Source: Thermococcus nautili
GTDB taxonomy: Archaea; Methanobacteriota_B; Thermococci; Thermococcales; Thermococcaceae
Reading direction: 5' to 3'
Assembly: GCF_000585495.1 (NCBI RefSeq)
Contig: NZ_CP007264.1
Location: 620,001 to 684,000, forward strand
DNA length: 64,000 bases
Of this stretch, positions 11,288 to 28,027 are shown piece after piece. Made by a program: the position numbers and the translations under genes. Position 1 is the stretch's first letter. Every line of letters begins with the position of its first letter. The notes below the pieces were generated by a model that saw only the letters and a program-made list of their open reading frames with translations, ran no database searches and was not told the DNA's origin.

Positions 11288-11288
11288 G

Positions 11289-11873: not shown

Positions 11874-11874
11874 C

Positions 11875-12456
11875 ATGGGGCTTCTCTCAAAGTTTTTTGG
11901 ACCGAAGAACCCTCTAGACGTTCCCCTCAAGGACCTGCTTGAGAACCAGATGAAGCTCGAAGCCCAGATTGAGAAAATCGAGCGCGAGCTCAGGGCGATA
12001 GAGGCCGAGATAGCGGAGCTCTTTGAAAGGGCAAAGAAAGCCAAGAGCAGGAGCGAGGAGCTCACGATAGCGACGAAGATAAAGACCCTCAACAAGCGCA
12101 AGAAGAACCTCCAGGCAACGCACGCCCAGCTGAACAAGCAGTTGATGCTCGTCAGCAACCTGCTCATCATCAAGGAGAACGAGGAGCTCCTGAAGGGAAC
12201 GCCAACCTGGGAGATGCTCAGGAAAATGTCTCCGAAGGAGCTTGAGGAGAAGCTAATCGAGATGGAGCTCGACGCCAGGAACTTCAACGAGAGCCTTGAG
12301 AAGATGCTCGGCATGACCGACAGGACGATAGGGGTTGAGGACTTTGAGGCCGACGAGGAGCTTGAGGAGATACTGAGCACAATAAGGGCTGTCAAAGAGG
12401 GCGAGCTTGAACCAGAAGAGGCCACGAAGAAGGTCGTCGAGGAGGAGACGGAGTGA
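11875..12456 (+). CDS. ESCRT-III/Snf7-like coiled-coil protein 2
   Basis: A 193-residue helical protein, clearly a paralogue of the preceding one. The N-terminus MGLLSKFFGPK is a good amphipathic membrane-insertion helix, like that of CHMP4/Snf7 (MSVFGKLFG). Long helices about 18-105 include a Lys-rich KTLNKRKKNLQ segment. A region with MELDARNFNESLEKML matches INLDGKEFNEMVESLN of the paralogue. The acidic tail is EGELEPEEATKKVVEEE. It begins 1 nt after the previous stop and ends directly at the next ATG, so the three genes form one translational block. It probably assembles with its paralogue into membrane filaments (inference). Confidence 0.65.
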   Translation: MGLLSKFFGPKNPLDVPLKDLLENQMKLEAQIEKIERELRAIEAEIAELFERAKKAKSRSEELTIATKIKTLNKRKKNLQATHAQLNKQLMLVSNLLIIKENEELLKGTPTWEMLRKMSPKELEEKLIEMELDARNFNESLEKMLGMTDRTIGVEDFEADEELEEILSTIRAVKEGELEPEEATKKVVEEETE

Positions 12457-14076
12457 ATGCCGAGGAGGAGCCTTGAAGAGGACTTCGTTCGGAGGCTCAT
12501 CATCTCGATTTTCCTGATTGCCCTTCTCCAGGGCTTCGGGTTACTCATATCGCTCTTCATATTCCTGCCGTGGATTGAGAGGTTCCTGAGGGAGACGGGC
12601 TCCTGGAAGCCCTATCCCGGGCCCGAACCGGTTCCGAGGCCGATGCCCAGGAAACCGCACAGTAGGGGTCCAAATCGTGGAATCTCCCTTACGGACGGGC
12701 TGATTTTTGAGGCGCCGAAAAAGCTAATCCAGGGAGCTGAGGCGCTGATAAAGGTCGGTTTCAGGAACAGGACAGGGAAAAGCCTTCGCGTCTCGATAGA
12801 CCTGTCGGAGCTGGCCCTCTACGGAAAGCTGGAGAGGAGGACCCTCGACCTGTACCTCCTTCCGGGCGAGGAGAGGAGCGAGTACGTGCGCTTCGTGCCC
12901 TCGAAGGTTGGGAAGCACGCGCTTACCGTCCGCGTCCGCTCCGGGCCGTTTATGGGGAAGAAGGCCATTGAAATCGAGATTACCGGAGAAAAAGCCGGGG
13001 GCAACGGGTTGGAGGCCCTTCTGTCGAGATACGAGAGGGTCGAGCTAATTGGAGAGGGCGGCTTTGGCAAGGTCTACCGCGCCCTGAGGGACGGCCGGTG
13101 GGTCGCGCTCAAGGTTCCCCACGTCCTCAACGAGAGAACCGGAAAGCTCTTCCTGCGCGAGGTTTCCATATGGCGCGAGCTGAGGCACGGCAACATAGTG
13201 AAGCTCCACGACGCAAATCTGACGCCTTACCCCTACATAGAGATGGAGCTCTGCGACCGGTCGCTCGAAGACCTGGAGAAGCCCCTTCCGGCGGAGCGCG
13301 TGGCCGAGATAGCTTTTGAGGTAGCGGAAGGCCTGAAGTACGCCCACTCGAAGGGTATAATCCACCGCGACCTGAAGCCAAGCAACGTCCTCCTCAAGGG
13401 CTCCAAGCCGAAGATAAGCGACTGGGGGCTTGCGAAGGTTCTGTTCGAGAGCGGAACCACGACGGTAACGGCGATGACGCCCTACTACGCCTCGCCCGAG
13501 CAGATAAGTCCGTCGCGCTTCGGAGGGGTTGACGAGAGAACCGACGTATGGCAGCTGGGCGTTCTCATGTACGAGCTCGCGACGGGGAGGAGGCCCTTCG
13601 AGGGGAGCGACTTCGTCGAGGTCGCCGGGAGGATAATCATGGAGGAGCCGCAGAGGCCGAGCGAGCTTAATCCAGAGGCGAAGCCCCTTGAAGGAGTAAT
13701 CCTCCGCTGTCTGAGTAAGGAGAAGGAGAGGCGCTACGGAAGCGTTGAAGAGCTCCAGCGGGATTTGTCGGGAATCCTCGGCGGGAAGTACCGGGAAGAG
13801 CTCAAGAAGAGCGTCGAGCCCTCGCGCTCGGCCTACTACGCGGGCCAGCTGTTCCTCCTCCACCTGCGGCTCGGGGACGCGAAGGAGGCCCTGAAGTACG
13901 CGAGGGACCTGCTGAGGTACGCGAGGGGGAGGGAGAGGGAAGAGCTGGAGAGGCTCATCGAACAGATTGAGCTGAGGGTTGAGGAGGGGCTCCCCGTTCC
14001 GAGGGAGCTCGTTGAGAAGGGGGAGGTTGTTGTTCACGGAGTTGGCGGCAATCCGTCCAATTGCTCTCATTCTTGA
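12457..14076 (+). CDS. Membrane-anchored Hanks-type Ser/Thr protein kinase 1
   Basis: A 539-residue kinase. One or two hydrophobic segments lie at residues 12-42, with no cleavable signal. A Pro-rich linker and an Ig/CARDB-like beta domain (about 70-175) follow, then the kinase domain: glycine loop GEGGFGKV (from G199), ATP Lys K219, HRDLKPSN (D305), DWG in place of DFG (D322), YASPEQ as activation-segment end, and TDVWQLG. A helical tail of about 90 residues (GDAKEALKYARDLLRYAR ... EEGLPVPRELVEKGEV) also occurs in the two other kinases here. It lies between the ESCRT-III-like pair and the Vps4-like ATPase. Catalytic residues look complete, so an active kinase is expected. Confidence 0.92.
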   Translation: MPRRSLEEDFVRRLIISIFLIALLQGFGLLISLFIFLPWIERFLRETGSWKPYPGPEPVPRPMPRKPHSRGPNRGISLTDGLIFEAPKKLIQGAEALIKVGFRNRTGKSLRVSIDLSELALYGKLERRTLDLYLLPGEERSEYVRFVPSKVGKHALTVRVRSGPFMGKKAIEIEITGEKAGGNGLEALLSRYERVELIGEGGFGKVYRALRDGRWVALKVPHVLNERTGKLFLREVSIWRELRHGNIVKLHDANLTPYPYIEMELCDRSLEDLEKPLPAERVAEIAFEVAEGLKYAHSKGIIHRDLKPSNVLLKGSKPKISDWGLAKVLFESGTTTVTAMTPYYASPEQISPSRFGGVDERTDVWQLGVLMYELATGRRPFEGSDFVEVAGRIIMEEPQRPSELNPEAKPLEGVILRCLSKEKERRYGSVEELQRDLSGILGGKYREELKKSVEPSRSAYYAGQLFLLHLRLGDAKEALKYARDLLRYARGREREELERLIEQIELRVEEGLPVPRELVEKGEVVVHGVGGNPSNCSHS

Positions 14077-14090
14077 AGGAGGTGTATCAA

Positions 14091-15254
14091 ATGCCCGTTG
14101 ATTTGACAGGTCCGCTTATGGCGTCCTTCAGAAGGGCCAAGAAGGCCTACGAAAAGGCCCTAGCCGAGGGCGATTACGAGACCGCCAGGAGAAAGGCCCT
14201 TGAGTGCGCGAGGATTCTCAAACAGCTCGCCAAGCACGACCCCTACGGTAGGAGCTCCTACCTGGCAAAGGCAAGAAAGTGGGAAGACCTTGCTAAGGGT
14301 CTCGAAGAGGGAAGGATTCCGAAGAGGGAGGTCAAGGTAACCTCGGAGGGAACCGACGAGGATGAGCTAAGAACCTACGTCATGGGACTTATAGCAAGGT
14401 CAAACGTCAAATGGGGCGACATTGGAGGCCTTGAGGACGTCAAACGGCTCCTCATGGAAACGGTGGTCGTCTCGGCACTCCAGAGACCGGAAGCGGTTCA
14501 GCCCTGGAAGGGGGTTCTCCTCTTCGGCCCGCCGGGAACCGGGAAGACCCTGCTCGCTTCTGCTGCCGCCGGAAGTTTAAACGCAACCTTCTTCTCGGTC
14601 AAAGCCAGCAACGTCCTGAGCAAGTACTTCGGCGAGTCCGCGAAGATAATCTCGGCCCTCTACGAGGTCGCCCGCGAGAAAGCCCCGAGCATAGTCTTCG
14701 TTGATGAAGTAGATGCCCTCACAACCCGGCGCTCCGGCGAGACGAGCGAGGCCAGCAGGAGGATGCTCTCGACGTTTCTAGCGGAGCTTGACGGCTTTCA
14801 GGACAAGGGTAGCGACGTGCTCGTTCTAACCCTCGCGGCAACCAACACCCCCTGGGATTTGGACGAGGCGGTTCTCTCGCGCTTTCCGAGGAGGATTTAC
14901 GTCCCGCTGCCGGACGAGAAGGCCACGAAGGAGATAATCAAAATCAACACGCGCGGGCTCGACATAAGCAGGCTTGACTTGGACGCAATAGCCGAGGAGA
15001 GCGTCAGGCGCCTGTACTCGGGGAGGGACATCAAGAACCTCTGCCAGGAGGCGGTATGGAACATGATTCGCGAGGAGAACAGAGACCTCCACAAGCTCGC
15101 CGAGCTCCCCTACGAGGAGCTCAAAAAGCGCTCGCTCAGGACGAGACCGCTTGAGATGAGGGACTTCGAGGAGGCATTCAAGAAAATTAAGAGCCCGCTA
15201 ACGAGGAGAGATGTCGAGAGGTACGAGAAGTGGGCGGAGGAGTTTGGGGGATGA
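14091..15254 (+). CDS. Vps4/CdvC-like AAA ATPase with N-terminal MIT-like domain
   Basis: A 387-residue single-AAA ATPase. Residues 8-75 form three helices (FRRAKKAYEKALAEGDYETARRKALECARIL ...) in the pattern of MIT domains, which bind ESCRT-III tails. The AAA part begins VKWGDIGGLEDVKRLL, very like Vps4 and katanin. It has Walker A GPPGTGKT (K152), Walker B VFVDEVDAL (D205, E206), sensor-1 AATNTPWDLDEA and arginine fingers in SRFPRR, then Vps4-type C-terminal helices. Length is close to that of crenarchaeal CdvC. It follows kinase 1 after 14 nt with a perfect GGAGGTG site. Expected role: ATP-driven remodelling of the ESCRT-III-like filaments encoded alongside. A katanin/spastin-like role is the alternative. 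Confidence 0.85.
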   Translation: MPVDLTGPLMASFRRAKKAYEKALAEGDYETARRKALECARILKQLAKHDPYGRSSYLAKARKWEDLAKGLEEGRIPKREVKVTSEGTDEDELRTYVMGLIARSNVKWGDIGGLEDVKRLLMETVVVSALQRPEAVQPWKGVLLFGPPGTGKTLLASAAAGSLNATFFSVKASNVLSKYFGESAKIISALYEVAREKAPSIVFVDEVDALTTRRSGETSEASRRMLSTFLAELDGFQDKGSDVLVLTLAATNTPWDLDEAVLSRFPRRIYVPLPDEKATKEIIKINTRGLDISRLDLDAIAEESVRRLYSGRDIKNLCQEAVWNMIREENRDLHKLAELPYEELKKRSLRTRPLEMRDFEEAFKKIKSPLTRRDVERYEKWAEEFGG

Positions 15255-17581
15255 GAAAGGTTGAAATCGCAATTTTGCTCGTCTTCCTTCTCACGTTAAA
15301 CCCTGCTTTTGCCGTTACAATCGGGATAGACCTCTTCCACGGCGAGAATCCCAAGGGACTCACACCGATGACCTATAAGAATCAGACGCTCGCCCCTGGA
15401 ATGGTCGAAACGCTCAGCCAGTACACCTTCGTCTACTTTGGAAACGAGAGCTATCGGGACGAGCTGGGAATCCGCTGGCTGGGCAGGTCAATAACCCCGG
15501 GCCTGCTGGAAAACGTTGACGTCCTCATAATCGGACAGCCAACGGTCAACCTTTCAAGCGCCGAAATCTCGGCCGTGAGGGAGTGGTTCTATTCGGGAGG
15601 AAAGGTTCTGTGGGTTGCCGGTGATTCGGACTACGGAAACGGCGCCAAGACTCAAGAGATAGTGAACGGCCTGCTTGAAGCCCTCGGCGCACCCCTACGC
15701 CTTGACCTGTGCTCCGTTGAGGACCCTGTGAGCAACGCGGGAAGACCCTACCGCCCCATAGCCTACGACAGACCGAGCAACGATACCCCTTACAGGGTGC
15801 TTTTGATTCAGGGAGTGGCTTATGGCATCCTCGCGCACGGGCCCGGGCCGGTGGCGCTCTTCGCGAACGGCACTTGGAAGCCCCTGGGGGATGAAAACAA
15901 GCCTTCGGGGGTTTACATCATACTCCGGACGAGCAAAGATGCCCAAATCGTTGAGAACAGCGCACCCCCCGCGAAGGCTTACAGGGCGGGAGAAACCGGG
16001 GAATTCCCGATAGTGGCGGCATGGGTGTGGAGTTCGGGCAACAAACGGAGTGTTCTGATAGTCAGCGGCGAGACGCCCGTTGGGGGCTACGAGCCCATGT
16101 GGGTCAGTCAGTACTACGGTATCAAGCTCGACGGGCCAACCTTTGTCTCGAACGTAATCCACTGGGGCGTTACCGTTGCCTCACGTCCCCCTGAAAACAG
16201 GAGCTCACCATCAACAACGTTCACGACGGCCGCATCTCCAACGAACAACCAGGTTGTCCAGCCGTCGAGTTCCCAGCCCGCAACAACGAGTTTAGACGGC
16301 GTAGAAAAGAGCTCGCCGGTACCGGCCCTTCCTCTCGCACTCGGAGGTATTCTGGTGCTTCTCATCATTGGACTCGCCTTTCTGAAGGGCAGGAGCGGGG
16401 GTGAAAAAAGGGCCAACCTCAACGTCCCCGGATTTCCGCCGGAGCTTCTGGAGGGGTATGAGCCCCTTGAGTTCCTCGGGGAGGGCGGCTTCGCCAAGGT
16501 CTTCAAGGTCAAGCGCAAAAAGGACGGCAAAACAGTCGCCCTAAAAATCCCGCACCTAACTGAGAAGTCCAGGAAATCCTTCATTAGGGAAGTTCAGGCC
16601 TGGAACATGCTGGAGCATCCGAACATAGTAAAGCTCTACCGTGCGGAGGAGAAGCCGGCACCATACCTCGAGATGGAGTTCGTTGAGGGTGCTGAGGTTG
16701 ATGGGAAGCTCGTTAGAACTCTTGAGGAACTGCCAAAGCCCGTTGATGAGAAAACTGCCCTAGAACTCATCAGAGGCATCGCAGAGGGATTGAAGCACGC
16801 GCACTCGAAGGGCATAACCCACAGGGACTTAAAACCCGGAAACATTCTCCTGAAGGCCGACTTAACGCCGAAGATAACCGACTGGGGACTCGCGAAAATC
16901 GGAACACATTCAACGACCACCACCTCGGGGGTAACGGTTCTCTACGCCGCGCCGGAGCAGCTTGACCCCGAAACCTACGGGCGCACCGACCCCAGGACTG
17001 ACATTTACCAGCTCGGCCTCATCTTCTACGAACTCCTGACAGGAAAACTGCCCTACGGGGGGAAGGGCCCCGCAAGTGTAATCGCAAAGATTCTCAACCC
17101 AGAAATCAAGCCGAAACCGCCGAGTGCCGTTAGGCCAGAGCTTGCGAAGTACGATGGGCTCTTCGAGAAGTTGCTGGCGAAGAGGAAGGAAGACCGCTAC
17201 GAAAGCGTCGAGGAGTTTCTGGAGGACCTTAAGCTCTTGGAGAGGCTTGAAGGAGAAAGGGCCGACCTCAGAGGGCAGATTGAGGAGCTCAAGAAAACCA
17301 TCCAAGTAACGACGGACAGGTCGGAGGTTCAGAGGCTCGTCAGGAAACTCGTTGAAGGACTTGGGAGGAACGCGGTCCTTTCGGCGAGGCTCAACGACAA
17401 GGCAGGCCTGATTAGTGCGCTTGAGGAGCTCAAGGAGTTCACTCGGGAAGAAAGGGGAGAGGTTGAGCGGGCGATTGAAACCGTCGAGCTCCTCCTGAGG
17501 GAGGGTCTGCCGATTTCTCGGGAACTTGTTGAGAGAGTGGAAGTCCTTGTTGATAGGATTAAACGGGAGGTGGAGAGATGA
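15251..17581 (+). CDS. Receptor-type Ser/Thr protein kinase 2 with extracellular GATase-like sensor domain
   Basis: A 776-residue type I membrane kinase. The signal peptide is about residues 1-21 (ILLVFLLTLNPAFA). The extracellular part (about 22-310) contains VDVLIIGQPTVNLSSAEISAVREWFYSGGKVLWVAGDSD, an alpha/beta pattern like GldG/DUF4350 and glutamine-amidotransferase-like domains. A Ser/Thr-rich stalk and one membrane segment (about 361-382) follow. Kinase: GEGGFAKV (from G410), K432, HRDLKPGN (D526), DWG (D544), YAAPEQ, TDIYQLG. The C-terminal about 100 residues are the helical tail shared with kinases 1 and 3. The ATG overlaps the ATPase stop (ATGA) behind GGAGGAG, and the end overlaps the phosphatase start. 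The signal sensed is unknown. Confidence 0.9.
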   Translation: MRKVEIAILLVFLLTLNPAFAVTIGIDLFHGENPKGLTPMTYKNQTLAPGMVETLSQYTFVYFGNESYRDELGIRWLGRSITPGLLENVDVLIIGQPTVNLSSAEISAVREWFYSGGKVLWVAGDSDYGNGAKTQEIVNGLLEALGAPLRLDLCSVEDPVSNAGRPYRPIAYDRPSNDTPYRVLLIQGVAYGILAHGPGPVALFANGTWKPLGDENKPSGVYIILRTSKDAQIVENSAPPAKAYRAGETGEFPIVAAWVWSSGNKRSVLIVSGETPVGGYEPMWVSQYYGIKLDGPTFVSNVIHWGVTVASRPPENRSSPSTTFTTAASPTNNQVVQPSSSQPATTSLDGVEKSSPVPALPLALGGILVLLIIGLAFLKGRSGGEKRANLNVPGFPPELLEGYEPLEFLGEGGFAKVFKVKRKKDGKTVALKIPHLTEKSRKSFIREVQAWNMLEHPNIVKLYRAEEKPAPYLEMEFVEGAEVDGKLVRTLEELPKPVDEKTALELIRGIAEGLKHAHSKGITHRDLKPGNILLKADLTPKITDWGLAKIGTHSTTTTSGVTVLYAAPEQLDPETYGRTDPRTDIYQLGLIFYELLTGKLPYGGKGPASVIAKILNPEIKPKPPSAVRPELAKYDGLFEKLLAKRKEDRYESVEEFLEDLKLLERLEGERADLRGQIEELKKTIQVTTDRSEVQRLVRKLVEGLGRNAVLSARLNDKAGLISALEELKEFTREERGEVERAIETVELLLREGLPISRELVERVEVLVDRIKREVER

Positions 17582-18342
17582 GGCTAATACTGCCCGAAAA
17601 TCCATGCGTGGACTTCAGCGGGGCCGGAACTGACTTCGTTTACGGAATAACCCACGTTGGAGGACGAAAGCACAATGAGGACGGCCTGCTCATCATGAAG
17701 CTCCCCGACGGCTACTTACTTGCCGTTGCGGATGGACTGGGCGGCCACAACGCCGGGGAAGTCGCTTCTAGGCTGGCCCTGGAAACCCTTGCAGAGGTCT
17801 TTGGGGAGGAGTACGTTGAAGGCCTTGAAGAAGACCTTCTCGCGATTCTCCTGAGGAAGGCCCACGAGATTGCCCACTCCGTTGTTAGGGAGCGCGCAAA
17901 GGGGCCACTTGAGGGAATGGGGACGACCCTCGTCTCGGCCGTAGTTAGGGGAAGAACCGTTATCGTTGCCAACACCGGCGACAGCAGGGCGTACCTGGTT
18001 TCCAGGGGGAGGCTCGTCGCGAGGACGCTCGACCACTCACCACTTCAGGAGCTCGTCCTCATGGGGCAGGTAAGTGAGGAGGAAGCCATGTACCATCCAC
18101 TCAGAAACAGGGTGAGTTCTGCAATTGGGCGGCGTCTGATGGTTGACCTCTACCGCTGGGAGGTGGGGGCCAATCACATCCTCCTTCTCAGCACGGACGG
18201 CCTTCACGACTACGTTCCAAAGGAGGAAATCCTGCGGGCGCTCACCCCGGGGAAAACGGCACGTGACCTCGCCAAAACCCTCGTGGAAAGGGCCCTGCCT
18301 GCCACTGAAGACAACGTCACGGTGGTGGTGTGGAGATGGTGA
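17578..18342 (+). CDS. PP2C-family Ser/Thr protein phosphatase
   Basis: A 254-residue metal-dependent phosphatase, soluble and cytoplasmic. All PPM signature motifs are present: HVGGRKHNEDG near the start, AVADGLGGHNAGEVAS for the first metal Asp, GMGTTLVSAVV, VANTGDSRAYLV, LLLSTDGLHDYV, and TEDNVTVVVW at the end. Length is typical of bacterial PstP/Stp-type enzymes. The ATG overlaps the stop of kinase 2 (ATGA), and the next gene starts inside its last codons. It is therefore made in step with the kinases on each side and should reverse their phosphorylation of shared targets. Pairing with Hanks kinases is well known in Bacteria and less common in Archaea. Confidence 0.95.
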   Translation: MRLILPENPCVDFSGAGTDFVYGITHVGGRKHNEDGLLIMKLPDGYLLAVADGLGGHNAGEVASRLALETLAEVFGEEYVEGLEEDLLAILLRKAHEIAHSVVRERAKGPLEGMGTTLVSAVVRGRTVIVANTGDSRAYLVSRGRLVARTLDHSPLQELVLMGQVSEEEAMYHPLRNRVSSAIGRRLMVDLYRWEVGANHILLLSTDGLHDYVPKEEILRALTPGKTARDLAKTLVERALPATEDNVTVVVWRW

Positions 18343-21300
18343 GGAGATGGGCAGTATTCGTTGCGGTGTTGCTGTTAATATCACTCGTTCCACTAAGCCC
18401 GACTTTCGCCCAGTCCACTCAGGAGACCGCGCTTAGAATCGTGTACTTAACTGCCCAGGGCAGTCTCTTCACGGGCGTCTTCAACCCGTCCCCGAGCGGA
18501 ATGACCGACGTTTACACCCACCGCATCTGGTACTTCCTCAACGACCCGCCCTACGTGATGGGGCCCGACGGAAGCTATCACAGCTACCGCTGTCAGCTTG
18601 TCAGTGTCAATTACAACGTTCAGGTTCCGGACGATGCTGTAATCTGGAACGACACCCTCGGCGAGTGGACCTCCCCTTACGCTGGCAGAACTGCCAAGAG
18701 TGCCGTCACCTGGAAGTGTGGCCTTGGAACCTGGGTTGACGGCCAGAAGATAACCCTCGCCGACTACCTCTTCGCCTACGCAATGGACTGGGACTGGAGT
18801 CATGAAGGGGGAGCGTACTACGACCAGAGCTGGAGCGCCAGCGTGGCCGGCAAGCTCCAAGGAATCTACGGTCTCGAGGTGAAAGCCGTCACATCCGATT
18901 ACGTTGAGTTCACGGTCTACCAGGATTACGCAGTTCCATACAGCAGGTGGACCACCGCCGTTAACTACGTTCCCTACCCGGAGTTCCCCTGGCAGCTCTA
19001 TTATGCAGCCTCCGAGCTCGTGGCAAAGGGATACGGTGGCAAGGTGTTCTCGTGGAGCTCAAAGCCCACCAACGGGTACCAGCTCAACCTGATAGACGGG
19101 GAGCAGATGGAGTACATTTCGGGCATGCTCTCAAGGCTAAAGGATGAAGCCCCGATTCCGGACCCCCTGTCGGAGCTTTCAAACGTTCTCGGAAAATGGG
19201 GTCTGGACTACTACCACTCCGGCCTTCAGGATGCAGAAAGCGGGTACTCAGCCCTGATAAGCTGGATTTCAAACCACAAAAATGCCCTCGTAACCAACGG
19301 GCCGTACTACGTTGATGACTACAACCCCGGTGCAATGAGGCTCGTCCTCAAGCTCGCGAACAACAGAAGGGTTGGATTCCCGGACACCGTTAATGGTAAG
19401 ACCATCCCCTGGGAGCCGTACTGGAGAGAGATTGACGTTTACGGCGTTCTCAACGACTACACAGCTATCCTCTCCGTTGCTAAAGGCGAGTACGACCTGT
19501 ACTGGTTCACCAGACCTTATGGTACTTTGTCCAGTGTGGTCCAGGAATACGGCAAGAACATCAACCTAATCAAGGCTATCCCCACTTGGTGGAGCATCAA
19601 CCTCAACCTCGCAGGAGACCCCACGACAGGCCTCGTGGAAACCTCCAACGGAACCCGCTTCAACCCGTTCGCGCTCCGTGAGGTCAGGTACGCTATGAAC
19701 TGGCTCATCAACAGGCAGTACATCGTCAGCCAGGTACTCCAGGGAAGCGGAGCACCTCTCTACGGTCCAAACCCTACAGGCCAAGTTAACGCACACGAGA
19801 ATTACGTAACCGTTGCGAAGGCCATGGGCATAACCCCGCAGGGTGACGAGGCCTACGCCATCAAGATGATTGACGAGGCCATGAACAAGGCATCCTCGGA
19901 ACTCTCAGACCTAGGACACACCCTTGAGAAGAGGAACGGTGTCTGGTACTTCGACGGCGAGCCGGTTACCGTGAAGGTTATCGCCCGCGTTGAGGACAAG
20001 AGACTTGACGAGGGCAAGTACATTGCTCAGATACTCCAGAAGGCGGGCTTTAAAGTGGAGCTCATCCAGTGGCAGAGAACCCAGGCCAACAAAGCAGTTT
20101 ACAGCAGTGACCCAACCACCCTCCAGTGGCACGTTTACACGGAGGGATGGCTTGCAGGCGAAATTCGAGACGTTACGTCCCTTGCCCAGGACTTCTGGTT
20201 CTTCGACATCTACGTTGACCCGAACTGGGGTTCCAACTACCACAACCCGGTAACGGTCAGAGACGTTCTCAACGCTATCGCCAGCGGTGACGTTGCCAAG
20301 TTCATCAGCGAACTAAACCTCAAGTACTACAACACTCCAGATAAGCTCAAGCCGCTCCTCGACTGGACCGGCTACGACCTCGCCAGCCTGCTCGCTTACT
20401 CGAAGTGGACCAAGAACGGACTAACGGTAAGTATGTGGAACATCGACCAGTTCTGGGACCTCTACAAGCTCGCCTACGCACTCCACCTCTACAACTCCCC
20501 CAGAATCTACACGGCCGAGTTGTGGGACTTCTACATCACCAACAAGAGAGTGAAAGTTGGAATCCCCGACCCAGTTACGGGACTTGGAAGCTTCCTTGCC
20601 GTCCGTTCACTTGAACCCGCTGAAACATTGGTGTCAGGGGAAACAACGGGAACAGGAACAACGACTTCAACACCCTCACAGGTGCAGAGTGATAGGGGAA
20701 CAATCGAAGTAGTCTCCGCACCTGCAGGCGCTGAGGTTTACGTTGACGGAGGCTACCAGGGAATAGCGCCAATAAACGTCAGTGTATCCCCTGGGACGCA
20801 CAGGGTTCAGCTGAAGATGCCCGGCTATGAGGAGTACTCGACGACGGTCACGGTAGATGCTGGAAAAACCGTTGTTCTAAACGTAAACCTGGAACCCAAA
20901 TCCGGAACCCTAGTAGTTGACTCAACACCTTCGGGAGCCAGCGTTTACGTGGACGGCACCTACCGCGGGACTACTCCCCTGACCGTTGAGCTACAGCCGG
21001 GCAAGCATACGATAAACGTGACTCTCGAAGGCTACAAGCCATACATGGGGACAGTCAATGTTCCTCCAGGCGAAACCGTAAAGATAACGGCGAAGCTTGA
21101 GAAGAAAATCGCGACGGGGACGGTTTGGATAAATTCCCAGCCCACAGGGGCGGACGTCTACGTTGACGGCACGTGGCGCGGGACAACACCGCTGACGCTC
21201 ACCCTTCCACCGGGTACCCACACAATAGAAATCCGGAAGGAAGGTTATCAACCGACCAGAAAAACGGTTGACATTGCCCCAGGAGAAGAAAAGAAAATAA

Positions 21301-22673
21301 CGCTAACCCTCTCGGTGGTGACCTCTCAGGATACCCAACCGAAAACGACCAGCGAATCCACGCCGGCCAACGCAGTTCCAAGGAAGGCCATCGCAGGTGT
21401 TCTGGCCGTGTTCATCCTTGTTGGGGCGGTGTTCCTTCTCAAGCGCTCGCGCTCTGGAGGAAAGACCCAAAATGAGCCCTCCAAGGGTTCAATTGAGGGC
21501 TTCCCGGCCGAGCTCCTAGACAGATACGAGCCCCTTGAGTTCCTCGGAGAGGGCGGTTTTGCCAAAGTCTTCAAGGTCAAACGCAAAAAGGACGGCAAAA
21601 CAGTCGCCCTAAAAATCCCCAGAATCGACGAGAAAACCAGCAAGACCTTCCTCCGCGAGGTTTCAACGTGGTTCCAGCTCAACCACCCCAACGTCGTCAA
21701 GCTCTACGACGCGGACATCTTACCAGTTCCCCACCTTGAGATGGAGTTCGTTGAGGGTGCCAAGGTTGATGGGAAGCTCGTTAGAACGCTTGAAGAACTG
21801 CCAAAGCCCGTTGATGAGAAAACTGCCTTAAAACTAATCAGGGGAATAGCGGAAGGCCTAAAACACGCCCACTCGAAAGGCATCGTTCACCGCGACTTAA
21901 AGCCCGGAAACATCCTCCTCAAGTCAGACCTAACACCGAAAATAACCGACTGGGGACTCGCGAAAATAGGAACGATGAGCTCGGGAAGGAGCGTGATGGG
22001 CTACACCCCACTCTACGCCGCGCCGGAGCACCTGATGCCGAGCAAGTTCGGAAACACCGACCACAGGACAGACGTATGGCAGTTGGGGACGATTTTCTAC
22101 GAGCTACTGACCGGCAGGGTTCCGTTTGAGGGCTACACCTACGAGGAGGTCTTCGGCAAGATAACTGACGAGAACTACCTCCACAAACCACCCTCAGAGT
22201 TCAACCCGGCCCTAGCGAAGTACGATGGGCTCTTCGAGAAGCTGCTGGCGAAGAGGAAGGAAAACCGGTACGGAAGCGTTGAAGAATTCCTGAGGGACCT
22301 TGAGAAGCTCGAAGAGAGCGAGAGGCGGAAGCAGGAGCTCGGGTTCCAGGTTGAGGAGCTGAAGAAAACCCTCGCAAGAAGCGTGGAGGCTCTGAAGAGG
22401 AGCAAGACCGCCGAGGAAATCAGGGAGAACAGCAGGCTCGTAGTCCAAACTCTCTCGAAGCTCGCTTTAGCCTACGCGGAGCTCAACAGGAAGGCAGAGC
22501 TTCTCAACACCCTGAGCGACCTGAAATTCTATACAACCCAGCACAGAGAGGAGCTCGGGAGGGCAATTGAAGCCCTTGAGCTCATGATTAGAGAAAACCT
22601 GCCCGTAAGAGAGGACTTCGTTGAAAGGCTCAAGGTGCTCCTTCACGAGATAGAGCGTGAAAACGGGGTGTGA
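18336..22673 (+). CDS. Giant receptor kinase 3: solute-binding domain, three PEGA repeats, membrane segment, Ser/Thr kinase
   Basis: A 1445-residue fusion. Signal peptide to about residue 26 (LSPTFA|QST). Residues about 30-765 are an extracellular solute-binding domain of the oligopeptide/dipeptide class (SBP_bac_5; for example NGPYYVDDYNPGAMRLVLKLANN). Three PEGA repeats follow (about 787-1000), each with an AGAEVYVDG-like motif. One membrane segment is at about 1020-1040. Kinase: GEGGFAKV (from G1071), K1093, HRDLKPGN (D1187), DWG (D1205), YAAPEHL, TDVWQLG. The last about 100 residues are the tail shared with the other kinases. ATG 18336 is preferred, although GTG 18339 is possible. Ligand binding outside probably controls the kinase inside. 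Stretches are nearly identical in DNA to kinase 2, which suggests gene conversion. Confidence 0.93.
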   Translation: MVRRWAVFVAVLLLISLVPLSPTFAQSTQETALRIVYLTAQGSLFTGVFNPSPSGMTDVYTHRIWYFLNDPPYVMGPDGSYHSYRCQLVSVNYNVQVPDDAVIWNDTLGEWTSPYAGRTAKSAVTWKCGLGTWVDGQKITLADYLFAYAMDWDWSHEGGAYYDQSWSASVAGKLQGIYGLEVKAVTSDYVEFTVYQDYAVPYSRWTTAVNYVPYPEFPWQLYYAASELVAKGYGGKVFSWSSKPTNGYQLNLIDGEQMEYISGMLSRLKDEAPIPDPLSELSNVLGKWGLDYYHSGLQDAESGYSALISWISNHKNALVTNGPYYVDDYNPGAMRLVLKLANNRRVGFPDTVNGKTIPWEPYWREIDVYGVLNDYTAILSVAKGEYDLYWFTRPYGTLSSVVQEYGKNINLIKAIPTWWSINLNLAGDPTTGLVETSNGTRFNPFALREVRYAMNWLINRQYIVSQVLQGSGAPLYGPNPTGQVNAHENYVTVAKAMGITPQGDEAYAIKMIDEAMNKASSELSDLGHTLEKRNGVWYFDGEPVTVKVIARVEDKRLDEGKYIAQILQKAGFKVELIQWQRTQANKAVYSSDPTTLQWHVYTEGWLAGEIRDVTSLAQDFWFFDIYVDPNWGSNYHNPVTVRDVLNAIASGDVAKFISELNLKYYNTPDKLKPLLDWTGYDLASLLAYSKWTKNGLTVSMWNIDQFWDLYKLAYALHLYNSPRIYTAELWDFYITNKRVKVGIPDPVTGLGSFLAVRSLEPAETLVSGETTGTGTTTSTPSQVQSDRGTIEVVSAPAGAEVYVDGGYQGIAPINVSVSPGTHRVQLKMPGYEEYSTTVTVDAGKTVVLNVNLEPKSGTLVVDSTPSGASVYVDGTYRGTTPLTVELQPGKHTINVTLEGYKPYMGTVNVPPGETVKITAKLEKKIATGTVWINSQPTGADVYVDGTWRGTTPLTLTLPPGTHTIEIRKEGYQPTRKTVDIAPGEEKKITLTLSVVTSQDTQPKTTSESTPANAVPRKAIAGVLAVFILVGAVFLLKRSRSGGKTQNEPSKGSIEGFPAELLDRYEPLEFLGEGGFAKVFKVKRKKDGKTVALKIPRIDEKTSKTFLREVSTWFQLNHPNVVKLYDADILPVPHLEMEFVEGAKVDGKLVRTLEELPKPVDEKTALKLIRGIAEGLKHAHSKGIVHRDLKPGNILLKSDLTPKITDWGLAKIGTMSSGRSVMGYTPLYAAPEHLMPSKFGNTDHRTDVWQLGTIFYELLTGRVPFEGYTYEEVFGKITDENYLHKPPSEFNPALAKYDGLFEKLLAKRKENRYGSVEEFLRDLEKLEESERRKQELGFQVEELKKTLARSVEALKRSKTAEEIRENSRLVVQTLSKLALAYAELNRKAELLNTLSDLKFYTTQHREELGRAIEALELMIRENLPVREDFVERLKVLLHEIERENGV

Positions 22674-22676
22674 ACC

Positions 22677-23225
22677 ATGAAGTTCTGGAAATCCAAAGAG
22701 GAGAAAGAGATAGAAAGGAGGATACGGGCCAAAAAGGCAAAGATGGCCCTGAAACAGTACATAAACAACCTCGAAGCCTTAAAGCGCAGGGTCTTCCTTC
22801 AGGGAAAGGAAGCGGCGAAGCTCGGCGACGAGGAACTGCTGAGAAGAAGCGCCGTAAAGTACCTTGTCCTTGAGAATCGAATAAAGCAGGCGAAGCGCCT
22901 TCTCCTCCTCATGGAGGAGGCAGAAATCCAGAGGGAACTCGTTAAGGTCTCGGCTGAGTTCCTCCGCTTCAGCAGGGACATCGTTGAGAGCATTGCGGAG
23001 GGGCCCGGAGCAGAGGACGTTGCCAAGATGCAGGTTGAGTTCGAAAAGGCGATGGCGAAGGTTGAAACCCTCGACGAGGCTCTGAGTTCCATGCTCGACG
23101 TAACGAGCGAAAGCATCCTGAGCGGAAACTTTGACGAAGAAACGATAAAAGAGGCAGAGGCGTTCTTCGACGTAGAGCCCTCCGGAGAGAGGCTCAAAGA
23201 GATTGAGAAGGCTATGAGGGCTTAG
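22677..23225 (+). CDS. ESCRT-III/CdvB-like protein 3
   Basis: A 182-residue helical protein, last gene of the operon, 3 nt after kinase 3. The N-terminus is basic (MKFWKSKEEKEIERRIRAKKAK). A long hairpin follows with LQGKEAAKLGDEELLRRSAVKYLVLENRIKQAK, close to the GDEERARIYANELAEVR pattern of archaeal CdvB proteins. It continues with MQVEFEKAMAKVETLDEALSSMLD, typical of the second half of Vps2/Vps24-type subunits, and an acidic end. Of the three ESCRT-III-like proteins this has the most CdvB-like core, so it may cap or regulate the filaments. It lacks the shared EPEE tail of the other two. Its stop overlaps the convergent amidohydrolase by 14 nt. Confidence 0.65.
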   Translation: MKFWKSKEEKEIERRIRAKKAKMALKQYINNLEALKRRVFLQGKEAAKLGDEELLRRSAVKYLVLENRIKQAKRLLLLMEEAEIQRELVKVSAEFLRFSRDIVESIAEGPGAEDVAKMQVEFEKAMAKVETLDEALSSMLDVTSESILSGNFDEETIKEAEAFFDVEPSGERLKEIEKAMRA

Positions 23226-24411
23226 CCCAAGCCACTTTTCCATTTACCACAACCTTTTCCACGTCGCTTCCCCTCGCGGAGTAAACGAGGAGCGAGTAAA
23301 CGTTTTCCAACGGCCTGAACCACGGTTTATCTGCGTTTATGAGAACCAAATCCGCGAGATAGCCGGGCTCAATGAGTCCGGCCTTTAATCCAAGGGCCCT
23401 TGCGCCTCCAACTGTCGCCATTCCGAAGAGCTCTCGAGCTGGAACCGCGTGCGCCTTTCCGGCGGTCAGGTTCGCGACGATTCCGGCTGTTCTCATCTCA
23501 ATGAAGGGGTCGAGGATTCCGGTTGGATTGGGCGAGTCGTTGCCCAGGGCCACGTTGAGGCCAAGGTCAAGGAGTTTTCTCAGGTTCACGGTCCGCGCTT
23601 CAAGCTTGACGTTGCTGGTCGGGCAGTGGACGAGGGTCGAGCCGGCCCTGGCCAATCTCTCGAAGTCAGAATCGTTCAGGTAAACGCCGTGGACGCCGAT
23701 TAGACTTTCGTTCAAAAGCCCGGCCCTTTCGAGAAGGCCAACGGGCGAAAGGCCGTAGCGCCTTTTAACCTCGGAAACCTCCGCCCTGCTCTGGGCGAGG
23801 TGGATGTGAACCCTCGCGCCGGTTTCCCGGGAGAGTTCTGCGAGTTCTTTCATCAGCTCAAGCGAGACGGTGTTCGTTGCGTGCGGTGCAAGTGTGGGCG
23901 TTACGAGCTCGCTCCGGTTCCGCCAGCGCTTGAAGAACCGGAAACCTTCCTCAGGACTTGCGAGAGGAAAAACAACCTCGTCCATGACCGTCTGGCCGAT
24001 GAAGGCCCTTATGCCGAGCCTTTCGGCAACCTTCGCTATCTCGTCCGCGAAGAAGTAGTGGTCGTTTACCGTCGTCGAGCCGTTCATCAGGGCTTCTCTA
24101 AGACCGATTTCAGCCCACTCGCGGATTTCCTTCCGCGTCCACTCAAGTTCCATTGGCCAGATGATTTTCTCAAGCCATTCCCCCGTCGGCAGGTCCTCAC
24201 CGAGACCCCTGAAGCGCGCCATCGCCACATGGGTGTGGGCGTTGATTAGGCCGGGAATCACGAGGTAGTTCTCCCCGCCGTAAACTTCGTCAACGCCCCA
24301 CTCCCCCAATTCCCCCGCCGGAACGACGACCCGAATGATGTTATCCTCAACGATGACGGCCCCATCTCGAACGGAGCGGTAATCGACGAGCTTTCCGACC
24401 AGCGCAAACAT
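23212..24411 (-). CDS. Amidohydrolase, 5'-deoxyadenosine/S-adenosylhomocysteine/MTA deaminase type
   Basis: A 399-residue metal-dependent deaminase of the ATZ/TRZ group. Motifs seen: NAHTHVAM (metal HxH), HIHLAQS (metal His), a later His in GVHGVYL, CPTSNVKL, and GNDSPNP with the metal Asp. Relatives deaminate 5'-deoxyadenosine, SAH or MTA to the inosine forms and so recycle S-adenosylmethionine by-products. The ATG at 24411 follows GGTGGGAGG, six codons inside the longest frame. It is convergent with the ESCRT/kinase operon. The exact substrate cannot be told from the sequence. Confidence 0.85.
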   Translation of the reverse strand: MFALVGKLVDYRSVRDGAVIVEDNIIRVVVPAGELGEWGVDEVYGGENYLVIPGLINAHTHVAMARFRGLGEDLPTGEWLEKIIWPMELEWTRKEIREWAEIGLREALMNGSTTVNDHYFFADEIAKVAERLGIRAFIGQTVMDEVVFPLASPEEGFRFFKRWRNRSELVTPTLAPHATNTVSLELMKELAELSRETGARVHIHLAQSRAEVSEVKRRYGLSPVGLLERAGLLNESLIGVHGVYLNDSDFERLARAGSTLVHCPTSNVKLEARTVNLRKLLDLGLNVALGNDSPNPTGILDPFIEMRTAGIVANLTAGKAHAVPARELFGMATVGGARALGLKAGLIEPGYLADLVLINADKPWFRPLENVYSLLVYSARGSDVEKVVVNGKVAWAKPS

Positions 24412-24480
24412 CCTCCCACCGTTGAACATACGGCAGGGAAGAACTTAAACCTTTTGACGTTGTGACATTCAAATTCCCAA

Positions 24481-24600
24481 AGGATTTAAATCCTAAAACG
24501 AAAAACTCCGACCATGCCCCGGCTCGTTCGGATTGAGTCAAGGCTAAGGGCCCTGTCGCTCTGGCTGAATAGCCTCTTCTGATTGGGTTAGCGTTATAAA
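24481..24600 (+). promoter_or_regulatory. Two TATA elements upstream of asnS, the first inside a perfect palindrome
   Basis: AGGATTTAAATCCT (24481-24494) is a perfect 14-nt palindrome holding a TATA-like core. It would start transcription near 24510, just before a short ORF at 24514. A second element, GCGTTATAAACC (24591-24602), would start transcription near 24618, just ahead of the GGAGGTGG site and the asnS GTG at 24632. So the 120-nt leader region seems to carry two stacked promoters. Confidence 0.45.
24514..24582 (+). CDS. Possible 22-residue leaderless small protein or leader peptide
   Basis: An ATG-to-TGA frame of 23 codons that begins about 20-25 nt after a TATA-like palindrome, the spacing of leaderless archaeal transcripts. 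The product is basic and hydrophobic (starts MPRLVRIESR, ends LWLNSLF). It contains no Asn-rich run, so an attenuator for asnS is not obvious. It is too short for homology by eye and may be chance. Confidence 0.25.
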   Translation: MPRLVRIESRLRALSLWLNSLF

Positions 24601-24631
24601 CCCCGCTGAAAAGCTTTTGGAGGTGGTAAAG

Positions 24632-25924
24632 GTGATTGATAAGGTTTACTGTGCCGACGTTAAGCCCGAAATGGAAGGAAAGAGGGTTAAGCTCGCCGGA
24701 TGGGTTTACAGAAAGAGGGAGGTCGGAAAAAAGGTCTTCATAGTGCTCAGGGACTCGAGCGGAATCGTTCAGGTGGTCTTCTCCAAGGAACTCAACGAAG
24801 AGGCCTACAGGGAGGCCAAGAAGCTCGGCATCGAGTCGAGCGTCATCATCAAGGGAACCGTTAAAGCTGACCCACGCGCTCCCACAGGGGCGGAGGTTCA
24901 AGCCGACAAGCTTGAAGTTATCCAGAACGTTGACTTCTTCCCGATAACGAAGGACGCGAGCCCGGAGTTCCTGCTCGACGTCAGGCACCTGCACCTCCGC
25001 TCGCCCAAGGTCGCGAGCATAATGAAGGTAAAGGCCACGCTCGTTCAGGCGGCGCGGGAGTGGCTCCTCCAGGACGGCTGGTACGAGGTATTTCCGCCGA
25101 TACTCGTCACCGGGGCTGTTGAGGGTGGTTCGACGCTCTTCAAGCTCAAGTACTTTGACAGATACGCCTACCTAAGCCAGTCGGCCCAGCTCTACCTTGA
25201 GGCGGCAATATTTGGCCTCGAAAAGGTCTGGTCGCTCACACCGAGCTTCAGAGCCGAAAAGAGCAGGACGAGGAGGCACCTCACCGAGTTCTGGCATCTT
25301 GAGCTTGAGGGAGCCTGGATGGACCTGTGGGACATCATGAAGGTCGAAGAGGAGCTGGTAAGCTACATGGTTCAGCGCGCGCTTGAGCTCAGGAGGAGCG
25401 AGATTGAGACCTTCAGGAAGGACCTAACCACGCTCAAGAACGCCGTTCCGCCGTTCCCGAGGATAAGCTACGACGAGGCCATAGACATACTCCAGAGCAA
25501 GGGCGTCGAGATAGAGTGGGGCGAAGACATGGGTGCCGACGAGGAGAGGGTTCTTACCGAGGAGTTCGAGGCCCCGTTCTTCGTCTACGGCTATCCGAAG
25601 GGCATCAAGGCCTTCTACATGAAGGAGGACCCGGAGGACCCGAAAAAGGTTCTCGCTGCGGACATGCTCGCTCCCGAAGGCTACGGCGAGATAATCGGTG
25701 GCTCCCAGCGTGAGGACGACTACGACAAGCTCGTGCAGAGAATCCTTGAGGAGGGGATGAACCCCGAGGACTACCAGTGGTACCTCGACCTCAGGAAGTA
25801 CGGCTCCGTTCCGCACAGCGGTTTCGGCCTCGGCCTTGAGAGGCTCGTCGCATGGGTTCTCAAGCTCGACCACGTGAGGTGGGCCACACTCTTCCCGAGG
25901 ACACCGAGCAGGCTTTACCCGTGA
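24632..25924 (+). CDS. asnS: Asparaginyl-tRNA synthetase
   Basis: A 430-residue class IIb synthetase that charges tRNA-Asn. The N-terminal OB-fold anticodon domain begins MIDKVYCADVKPEMEGKRVKLAGWVYRK, as in Pyrococcus AsnRS. Class II motif 2 is in FRAEKSRTRRHLTEFWHLE and motif 3 in GFGLGLERLVAWVL. The close AspRS alternative is rejected because the start and the SQSAQLYLEAAIFGLEKVWSL region follow the Thermococcales AsnRS pattern. The GTG at 24632 is chosen because it follows GGAGGTGGTAAAG. An upstream in-frame TTG lies in that site. A dedicated AsnRS implies direct tRNA-Asn charging. Confidence 0.92.
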   Translation: MIDKVYCADVKPEMEGKRVKLAGWVYRKREVGKKVFIVLRDSSGIVQVVFSKELNEEAYREAKKLGIESSVIIKGTVKADPRAPTGAEVQADKLEVIQNVDFFPITKDASPEFLLDVRHLHLRSPKVASIMKVKATLVQAAREWLLQDGWYEVFPPILVTGAVEGGSTLFKLKYFDRYAYLSQSAQLYLEAAIFGLEKVWSLTPSFRAEKSRTRRHLTEFWHLELEGAWMDLWDIMKVEEELVSYMVQRALELRRSEIETFRKDLTTLKNAVPPFPRISYDEAIDILQSKGVEIEWGEDMGADEERVLTEEFEAPFFVYGYPKGIKAFYMKEDPEDPKKVLAADMLAPEGYGEIIGGSQREDDYDKLVQRILEEGMNPEDYQWYLDLRKYGSVPHSGFGLGLERLVAWVLKLDHVRWATLFPRTPSRLYP

Positions 25925-25937
25925 GCTTAATCTTTTA

Positions 25938-27665
25938 CTATTCTCTTCTCTGATTCCTATTTAGATTCGATAAAATTAATAGGATTAGTCCTCCAATACC
26001 TTCCAGGATAGATATTAGGAACACTACCATATTTTGTCTTGTAGACATGGCCCAATTCAGTAACTTTTCAATGTCAGTATTATTATTTGTCATCCCAAAA
26101 TTAACACCCAAAATGACAAACATTCCCCCGCCAAGCACAATCAACAGCATTGAAATGACGTTCTGCAAGGTAAGGAATCTTGCAAGCATCAAATTTTCCT
26201 GACTCTCTTCCCAGAGAAGGAGAACAGATGTAAGGGTTATGCCAAGATAAAGAATGACTACACTCTGAAACTGTTGTACCAGTGTGTTGACTGTGTTGTC
26301 CGAAAGCCCCATTCCATTTGTGATAGCATAAGCAAAAATGAGAGAGCTAGGGACAATGAAAGCCCCTATAATAAGGTTGTAGAATGTATCTAAGATATCA
26401 TTGCTCTCTCCTCGCCCAACAGTAGTTTTAATAAGGGCCTGAACAAATACAAGTCCATATCCCACCAGAGCCAGTAAAGCAAGGCCATAGGTAATGAAAT
26501 TTATAGAAAACAGCGAAGTTACCATAGAAAGAAGAACAATGAGGAGGATACCTAGCGCCCCCAACAAAATAGTTTCCCAGCGGTTCCAGATTAAAACAAA
26601 GGTGATACCCGCCCCAAATACCATTGAGAAGACCCAGATGAGTATGGCAAAGTCTCCCGGATTAACCCCTACCCAAAGGAGAAGGGCAACATTACTAGTA
26701 AGAATAAATGTGACAATTAATGAAACAACACCTTCATAGGGAATTTCCTGTAATCCACTTAAGAGAATCAAAAAAGATACAGAAACCAGATATATAATCC
26801 AAATCCAAATTCCCATTAAAGTGCGTATATGGAAAAGTTTAGCCAAAGAGAGAGGAACAAATAGATAAACAAACACTCCACCAAAACTAAACAATGCAGT
26901 TCTCCCCTTTTCATTTAGTAAACTATCCGAGAACAGAAACGCTATCGTAGGTAATAAAATCAAAAGTAAAATCCACGTTAGAAGAAGGCCCGCTCCAACA
27001 TAGCTTCGCGAGTTAGTAGAATTCGTAGAGCCTGAAGATACGTTAAATTCTTCACCATTTTCATTTGGTATAAATGTGTAGTTCTTTACTACTCTTTTGC
27101 CATCCTCAGTAAACGCAACAACTAGATGAACGGGATTTTTCTCTGGAACGAGCAGACTCATATTGGCTGAATTACTCACAAGAACTGCATATGCGTAATC
27201 AATGTATACGGTAGTGCCTGTTAAAGTTACATTTTTTAGAATAAAACCAATTTCAAGGGGGCGAGAACACATATCATTTTCGCAGAGAACTACGTTCCAG
27301 TGGTTTAAGTGGCCATAGCTGATGGTAGAATTTAAAATAATGTCTCTGGAACCTTGAGGGGAAATAACAAAAAAAGCTCTTTTGCTGTGAGGTTCATACA
27401 GAACTGCCTCAACTTTGAGAATATGTGAGGAGTTTAGAACGCCAACAGTGGCATAAATTGCAATATCGATATCTTGGGCATTTTTTGGAAAGTTAATTAT
27501 TGTAACGTTGCTGATATTAAAAACAACGTACTTGCTGGTGGATACCACCGCAAATTGATTGTTACTCCTCCAGACTGTCTCAGCATTAGCATAAGAATGG
27601 GATATAGAACCTACAATTATGAATGCTAATATTATCGCTAAGATTATGATTTGTAGCTTTTTCAT
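25938..27665 (-). CDS. Polytopic membrane protein with extracellular N-terminal domain, unknown
   Basis: A 575-residue AT-rich gene that I do not recognise. A signal peptide spans about residues 1-28 (KKLQIIILAIILAFIIVGSISHSYA). An extracellular beta-rich domain with many N-glycosylation-type NxS/T sites covers about 29-215, and about ten membrane helices follow to the end. The ATG at 27665 lies about 30 nt after a TATA element (TTTTTAAATT, minus strand, near 27700), so the transcript is probably leaderless. A longer frame starting at 27695 would begin almost at the TATA box. Base composition unlike its neighbours suggests acquisition by transfer, together with the decayed stretch up to tRNA-Val. 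Confidence 0.78.
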   Translation of the reverse strand: MKKLQIIILAIILAFIIVGSISHSYANAETVWRSNNQFAVVSTSKYVVFNISNVTIINFPKNAQDIDIAIYATVGVLNSSHILKVEAVLYEPHSKRAFFVISPQGSRDIILNSTISYGHLNHWNVVLCENDMCSRPLEIGFILKNVTLTGTTVYIDYAYAVLVSNSANMSLLVPEKNPVHLVVAFTEDGKRVVKNYTFIPNENGEEFNVSSGSTNSTNSRSYVGAGLLLTWILLLILLPTIAFLFSDSLLNEKGRTALFSFGGVFVYLFVPLSLAKLFHIRTLMGIWIWIIYLVSVSFLILLSGLQEIPYEGVVSLIVTFILTSNVALLLWVGVNPGDFAILIWVFSMVFGAGITFVLIWNRWETILLGALGILLIVLLSMVTSLFSINFITYGLALLALVGYGLVFVQALIKTTVGRGESNDILDTFYNLIIGAFIVPSSLIFAYAITNGMGLSDNTVNTLVQQFQSVVILYLGITLTSVLLLWEESQENLMLARFLTLQNVISMLLIVLGGGMFVILGVNFGMTNNNTDIEKLLNWAMSTRQNMVVFLISILEGIGGLILLILSNLNRNQRRE

Positions 27666-27773
27666 TTTAATCGTTGGTACATAGTATAAGCACAATTTAA
27701 AAACGTTTCGTTAGTTAATTAAAAAGTTTAATTTAAAAATTAAAAATCCTCAACGCCAGCGGCGGAAACAATA

Positions 27774-27914
27774 TTGCAAGCCCCAATTAGCACTTTCGAA
27801 GAGGCTTTTCAAAAGTTTGTAGCTCTTGCTCAAGGCTTAAATAGAGCAGATTTTGCTCGTAAATCACATTTTCCAAAAAGAACACACCAAAAAGACTGGC
27901 GAGTTTGGAAGTAA
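27774..27914 (+). pseudogene. Possible 46-residue coding remnant
   Basis: A frame from TTG to TAA with natural-looking composition (STFEEAFQKFVALAQGLNR ... HQKDWRVWK). There is no good start codon or ribosome binding site, and a stop (TAA) lies about nine codons upstream of the TTG. It may be the 3' end of a lost mobile-element gene, or chance. Confidence 0.25.
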
Positions 27915-27949
27915 ACCCTCATGAGAACAAGCCATTCAAGAGGCATGCC

Positions 27950-27982
27950 AACTTTGATGAAACTTTGCGCAGGCAAAGTTTC
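27950..27982. repeat. Hairpin repeat, copy 1
   Basis: GAAACTTTGC-GCAG-GCAAAGTTTC (27959-27982) is a perfect 10-bp stem. The preceding AACTTTGATGAAACTTT (27950-27966) is repeated exactly at 28296-28312. Confidence 0.7.
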
Positions 27983-28027
27983 CTAACGGGGGGCGAAGCC
28001 CCACTCCGGGGGTTTGAGAGTACAGAG

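Follow-up and report, generated by a model that had tools for sequence, protein, structure and literature searches.

Why should a binding domain of the kind that serves an ABC uptake system stand at the head of a membrane-anchored Ser/Thr kinase in an archaeon, and what might such a protein report to the products of the genes around it? The question is raised by a locus of Thermococcus nautili, whose genome is a single contig of 1.98 Mb. The window analysed here is a stretch of 64,000 nucleotides from that contig (NZ_CP007264.1, positions 620,001 to 684,000 of the forward strand), and all coordinates below count from its first letter. A sequence-only reading had described one reading frame of 1445 residues that joins an oligopeptide-binding domain through three PEGA repeats and one membrane helix to a kinase.

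The frame (18330–22673, forward strand) is open throughout from a GTG at 18330; the alternative ATG at 18336 is the more likely start and gives a protein of 1445 residues. Pfam finds SBP_bac_5 (2e-20; 73.6 bits against a cut-off of 32.4; best stretch, residues 314–618), PEGA (1e-61, three stretches) and Pkinase (3.5e-46, residues 1066–1315). Hydropathy places a signal peptide roughly at residues 8–26 and only one membrane helix, roughly at residues 1013–1037, between PEGA and kinase. Both the single fused frame and the three repeats with one helix thus hold as first read, and the order of signal peptide, ectodomain, one membrane helix and predicted cytoplasmic kinase is that of a receptor kinase. 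The parts of the gene are as follows.

18330–18410, +, signal peptide, residues 1–27 (hydropathy, 8–26; sequence)
18411–20639, +, OppA-type solute-binding domain (SBP_bac_5), residues 28–770, predicted to lie outside the membrane (Pfam; end-to-end match to 7fi3; AlphaFold2 model; Foldseek)
20640–20693, +, fast-evolving Ser/Thr-rich linker, residues 771–788 (sequence)
20694–21329, +, three PEGA repeats, residues 789–1000 (Pfam PF08308, three stretches; three successive beta units in the model)
21366–21440, +, transmembrane helix, residues ~1013–1037 (hydropathy)
21525–22274, +, Ser/Thr kinase domain, residues 1066–1315 (Pfam; motifs)
22275–22670, +, helical C-terminal tail of the kinase, residues 1316–1447 (conserved in relatives)

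The kinase matches the Hanks-type Ser/Thr family in Pfam with 158 bits against a cut-off of 31.7, and all its motifs are present: GEGGFAKV, VALK, HRDLKPGN, DWG at the DFG position with the Asp kept, and APE. The tail that follows is probably the PCI/wH-like domain that PMC11188069 describes for ESCRT-linked Ser/Thr kinases (STKs).

The solute-binding domain is complete. By phmmer, residues 32–764 align end to end with residues 4–724 of the 7fi3 chain (E 5e-129), which is archaeal oligopeptide permease A (OppA) of Thermococcus kodakaraensis with an endogenous pentapeptide bound. Residues 28–1010, modelled by AlphaFold2 from an input of 24 window and locus sequences, have a mean pLDDT of 82.5. 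Foldseek again returns 7fi3 as its top match (33% identity, E 3e-67); bacterial AppA, OppA and NikA-type proteins come next. The predicted ectodomain has the two-lobed fold of solute-binding proteins (SBPs) and the full OppA architecture. Structure prediction of the binding cleft was one of the checks that the sequence-only reading had proposed for this domain, whose completeness it had asserted.

That reading had also called the receptor one built from transport parts, which is borne out because its SBP domain shares 61–64% identity with two SBPs that the genome encodes as stand-alone proteins, and nests among transporter SBPs in the SBP tree. One of these paralogues (L016) precedes two multi-helix proteins that resemble ABC permeases; it has the same OppA body and ends in a Ser/Thr stretch and a CGP-CTERM sorting domain. 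The linker, PEGA repeats, membrane helix and kinase of the receptor stand where the paralogue has its CGP-CTERM anchor. No permease was seen beside the gene of the second paralogue (L017). Stand-alone OppA relatives in general end in a Ser/Thr stretch, mostly with CGP-CTERM, and often lie beside permeases; the receptor instead continues into PEGA, membrane helix and kinase. The receptor operon contains no ABC permease partner, and we do not claim the receptor SBP as a transport component.

Conservation against 13 close transporter SBPs served as a proxy for ligand-contact residues. By this proxy, the window clade retains 260 of the 308 sites invariant in the transporters, and a related receptor of genome G065 retains 292. 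The branch leading to the window-clade SBP is long (0.38), and ligand specificity may therefore have changed. The ligand had been read as peptide or sugar. Homology favours the peptide, since the nearest solved structure contains a pentapeptide, and sugar is the less favoured part of that reading.

The fusion recurs in other genomes. Complete SBP-PEGA-kinase proteins of 1447 or 1448 residues are encoded in the window genome, in G060 (L026/L097) and in G024 (L070). The window receptor is identical to those of G060 and G024 at 90% of SBP, 96% of PEGA and 88–96% of kinase positions. A frame error, or an assembly chimaera of two separate genes, would be the simplest way to dismiss such a protein. 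The break of the fusion at contig ends in the G041 draft, where the two halves lie beside the same kind of partners, does show that assembly can go astray over SBP copies that resemble one another. We found no frame break in the window, and full-length orthologues in two other Thermococcus genomes rule out both kinds of error. The SBP is 90% identical across the three genomes and the SBP-PEGA junction 94% identical among orthologues, while in G024, which comprises two contigs, the gene lies in another chromosomal neighbourhood; the probability of an artefact is in our view vanishingly small. Within the genus Thermococcus the arrangement is rare, as had been supposed for Archaea: the normal-order fusion occurs in 5 of 61 genomes (one split over contig ends), and a permuted version in a sixth. 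The G065 receptor (L073, 1437 residues) is without PEGA and has DUF7662 between membrane helix and kinase. The SBP of the G042 receptor (L129 4294–8100) is circularly permuted, its C-half coming first, and is joined to a kinase of another subclade.

Permuted OppA-type SBPs are also widespread in Thermococcus (L148 1226–3715 of G012, L146 1933–5811 of G059, L147 2403–8636 of G033), again with the C-half before the N-half in one signal-peptide-bearing frame and sometimes in tandem copies. A secreted protein of 2875 residues encoded elsewhere in the genome of the window (L023 8440–17067) contains numerous beta-helix/NosD repeats alongside a permuted SBP_bac_5 domain and fibronectin-type domains.

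The sequence-only reading had overlooked both the genes around the receptor and the exchange of ectodomains described below. The receptor gene is part of a one-strand operon that extends over 8929–23225, with these further members.

8929–9453, +, conserved partner of 174 residues, possibly arCOG08177 (by position only; co-occurs with the locus in L070, L117, L123 and L139)
9431–11287, +, coiled-coil partner of 618 residues, possibly arCOG09748 (by position only; co-occurs with the locus in L070, L117, L123 and L139)
11286–11873, +, ESCRT-III-like protein, frame open from 11226, likely start near 11289 (related to the gene at 11875; Snf7 sub-threshold in the family)
11875–12456, +, ESCRT-III-like protein (Snf7 E 0.0045, below cut-off; best in family, 2e-4)
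12457–14076, +, membrane-anchored Ser/Thr kinase of 539 residues (Pfam)
14061–15254, +, Vps4/CdvC-type AAA ATPase (AAA and Vps4_C over cut-off, Pfam)
15230–17581, +, receptor-type Ser/Thr kinase of 783 residues with a different ectodomain (Pfam; hydropathy)
17578–18342, +, PP2C phosphatase, whose gene runs into the receptor start (Pfam PP2C_2, 2e-16)
22677–23225, +, ESCRT-III-like (Snf7) protein, 3 bases past the receptor stop (Snf7 sub-threshold; five-helix model)

The Vps4-type ATPase scores 213 bits with the CdvC model, below that model's equivalog cut-off, and its helical N-terminus resembles an MIT domain by eye. Snf7 is matched in 13 of 13 members of the family of the 22677 protein and in 5 of 8 members of the other ESCRT-III-like family, in every case under the Pfam cut-off. 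In the model of the 22677 protein the helices follow the order of the ESCRT-III core; its fold matches are weak (BAR proteins, CdvB and CHMP among others), with none in Foldseek at E below 0.001, and searches of the PDB with the single sequence and with a profile gave no useful match. Vps4 and ESCRT-III-like genes are also found in homologous loci, and in G024 the receptor is present without the 22677 protein.

The main text of PMC11188069 describes Thermococcales 'Main clade' loci that comprise Vps4, ESCRT-III, arCOG09748 and arCOG08177, often with a membrane STK and a Ser/Thr phosphatase (STP), and proposes that these systems sort phosphorylated proteins. With its Vps4-type ATPase, three kinases and PP2C, the receptor operon appears to match this published archaeal ESCRT system with STK/STP, the ESCRT-III assignments resting on sub-threshold matches. 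In common with those Thermococcales loci it encodes a Vps4-type ATPase, a phosphatase and membrane-associated STKs, of which the receptor ends in a helical, probably PCI-like, domain; putative ESCRT-III proteins and a further pair of conserved genes would also correspond. The association of kinases with ESCRT genes is already published there. The Main-clade STKs of that account bear Ig-like repeats, whereas the present receptor bears an OppA ectodomain; its main text makes no mention of OppA ectodomains on STKs, of their repeated recruitment or of domain swaps. An earlier review (PMC10117752) described Thermococcales as without ESCRT-III, a view that differs from the main text of the later survey and from the present data. 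The same review cites, as unpublished, a disruption of Vps4 homologues in T. kodakarensis that left vesicle production unaffected.

Comparison of close relatives reveals that the ectodomain is exchanged as a unit. The G028 locus is 94.6% identical in DNA to window positions 16334–18342, which include PP2C, and 91.5% identical to positions 21495–25326, which cover the kinase and downstream sequence; exactly the SBP-PEGA-TM stretch between them is replaced, giving a receptor of 630 residues with a small PEGA-type ectodomain. G002 has the same kinase (88%) with an N-terminus of 260 residues and no membrane helix. The G024 block is 90.7% identical to window positions 17286–22531, and the genes next to its receptor also adjoin propeller receptors in other genomes. 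Among 48 scanned N-terminal regions of receptor kinases, PEGA was found in 36, PQQ-type propellers in 10, DUF5122 propellers in 7 and SBP_bac_5 in 5. A receptor kinase of the same family in G024 (L145 1238–6313, 1691 residues) carries legume-type (L-type) lectin domains outside and one membrane helix, a layout that resembles plant lectin receptor kinases. Judged from these domain assignments, PEGA, beta-propeller, lectin and SBP ectodomains are exchangeable in this family. The same 48 N-terminal regions (alignment A5) include a Macro-domain match in the N-terminal part of three receptor kinases. The G028 version of the operon also encodes, beside Vps4, a pentapeptide-repeat and ion-channel protein (L096 5990–7102).

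SBP receptors fall at four distinct positions of the kinase tree. The SBP tree groups the receptor of G065 with SBPs of G048/G057 transporters, and the transporter SBPs beside the window clade include those of its own genome. Forcing the receptor SBPs into one group lowers the log-likelihood by 111 units (AU p 1e-6), which rejects a single origin of the normal-order fusion. Given these positions in both trees, OppA-type domains were recruited to these kinases on no fewer than three occasions, one of them involving a circularly permuted SBP, unless gene conversion between receptor and transporter SBPs, another reading of the SBP tree, has blurred it. Between the window receptor and its orthologues dN/dS is 0.17–0.23 for the SBP, 0.13–0.25 for PEGA and about 0.05 for the kinase, values of purifying selection in all three parts. 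The tail of the G024 orthologue (L070 13964–18310), compared with window 22275–22670, has a dS above 1.3 and is far more diverged than the rest, a sign of recombination with a breakpoint inside the receptor gene.

We lean, by a modest measure, towards the view that the protein is a single-pass Ser/Thr receptor kinase of the Thermococcus ESCRT ('Main clade' Vps4/ESCRT-III) module, its exchangeable ectodomain slot filled by OppA from an ABC uptake system, and that peptide sensing regulates ESCRT. The OppA domain would be held outside the membrane on the PEGA stalk, where an oligopeptide, the ligand that homology suggests, would bind in its cleft. Closure of the lobes, or a ligand-dependent association of receptors, might then alter kinase activity inside. 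Products of the operon could be the substrates of the kinase, whether Vps4, the ESCRT-III-like proteins or the pair of conserved partners, and PP2C, encoded next to the receptor, could reverse the phosphorylation. Peptide supply would in this way adjust ESCRT-driven membrane remodelling, vesiculation or surface-protein turnover. The long branch of the window-clade SBP, the sub-threshold Snf7 matches, the G024 receptor that lacks its 22677 partner and the cited Vps4 disruption weigh against this view.

The same architecture could serve capture in place of sensing. The OppA domain would then be a cargo receptor that gathers a captured peptide or surface ligand at ESCRT sites for internalisation or vesicle packing, phosphorylation marking the loaded receptor. 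PMC11188069 proposes such capture for a ProX substrate-binding protein of Meth_adaptin ESCRT loci, and its suggestion that Main-clade systems sort phosphorylated proteins would suit this reading too, as would the fact that OppA is the main protein in the membranes and vesicles of Thermococcus (PMC10117752). The same kinase slot, however, also bears PEGA-only, propeller and lectin ectodomains, which signal reception fits at least equally well, and we consider cargo capture unlikely. A kinase-bound copy of OppA might otherwise act as a recognition or decoy module that detects viruses, vesicles or neighbouring cells docking on the abundant surface OppA (a major surface protein, PMC10117752), solute binding being incidental. 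Exchange of ectodomains at one locus between close relatives, and repeated recruitment with the window clade beside local transporter SBPs, its own genome's among them, would be expected of such a module. Purifying selection and the retention of transporter-conserved sites fit solute binding instead, no OppA-using parasite was found, and we give the decoy role little credence.

A known anti-phage system was also considered and rejected, as the PADLOC matches were generic ones to kinases and AAA proteins, any others being very weak; these matches lend nothing to a decoy either. It is similarly improbable that the protein is the receptor kinase described above with a ligand other than an oligopeptide, such as an oligosaccharide or another solute. 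Family 5 SBPs among the Foldseek matches do bind mannobiose (TM1223) and Ni-His, and the receptor clade has diverged, but by far the nearest solved homologue holds a pentapeptide and the neighbours of the L016 paralogue resemble permease genes of family 5 uptake systems.

Returning to the peptide-sensing receptor kinase, its closest relation among known binding proteins is Thermococcus OppA (7fi3) with its ABC transporter, which has an end-to-end homologous binding domain. In bacterial Venus-flytrap sensor kinases and actinobacterial kinase/SBP fusions, the binding-protein fold is used directly as a sensor domain, with other SBP families, other kinases and no known ESCRT context. The nearest working analogue is GlnH-GlnX-PknG of Actinobacteria (PMC6069109), where an SBP has likewise been proposed to act through the membrane on a Ser/Thr kinase; that system consists of three separate proteins with amino-acid ligands, whereas here one polypeptide is encoded in an archaeal ESCRT operon. 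A literature text search for archaeal SBP- or PEGA-kinases returned nothing relevant.

For the signals of archaeal receptor kinases, and for inputs to euryarchaeal ESCRT, the OppA ectodomain provides a definite candidate ligand to test, with the transporter paralogue in the same genome as a control and G028 as a natural domain swap. The operon contains a likely phosphatase and likely substrates of the receptor kinase, and the locus shows that archaeal receptors have arisen more than once out of transport proteins. We speculate, tentatively and at less than even confidence, that the ESCRT loci of Thermococcus work as surface-receptor systems built around a cassette slot. A conserved kinase would there take up one ready-made binding domain or another (OppA in normal or permuted order, an L-type lectin, a beta-propeller), and external chemical cues, or OppA-using parasites, would directly command an ESCRT-type membrane machine.

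Two further observations concern the surroundings and spread of the locus. Positions 1–2000 and 26001–28000 of the window are AT-rich (GC 0.31 and 0.38, against about 0.56 elsewhere), and the second stretch contains a multi-helix membrane frame of 585 residues. A complete ESCRT/receptor-kinase locus is also found in a record labelled as an Archaeoglobus sp. MAG (L028), with kinases almost identical to those of the Thermococcaceae genomes G107 and G109, which reflects either recent transfer or a misbinned contig.
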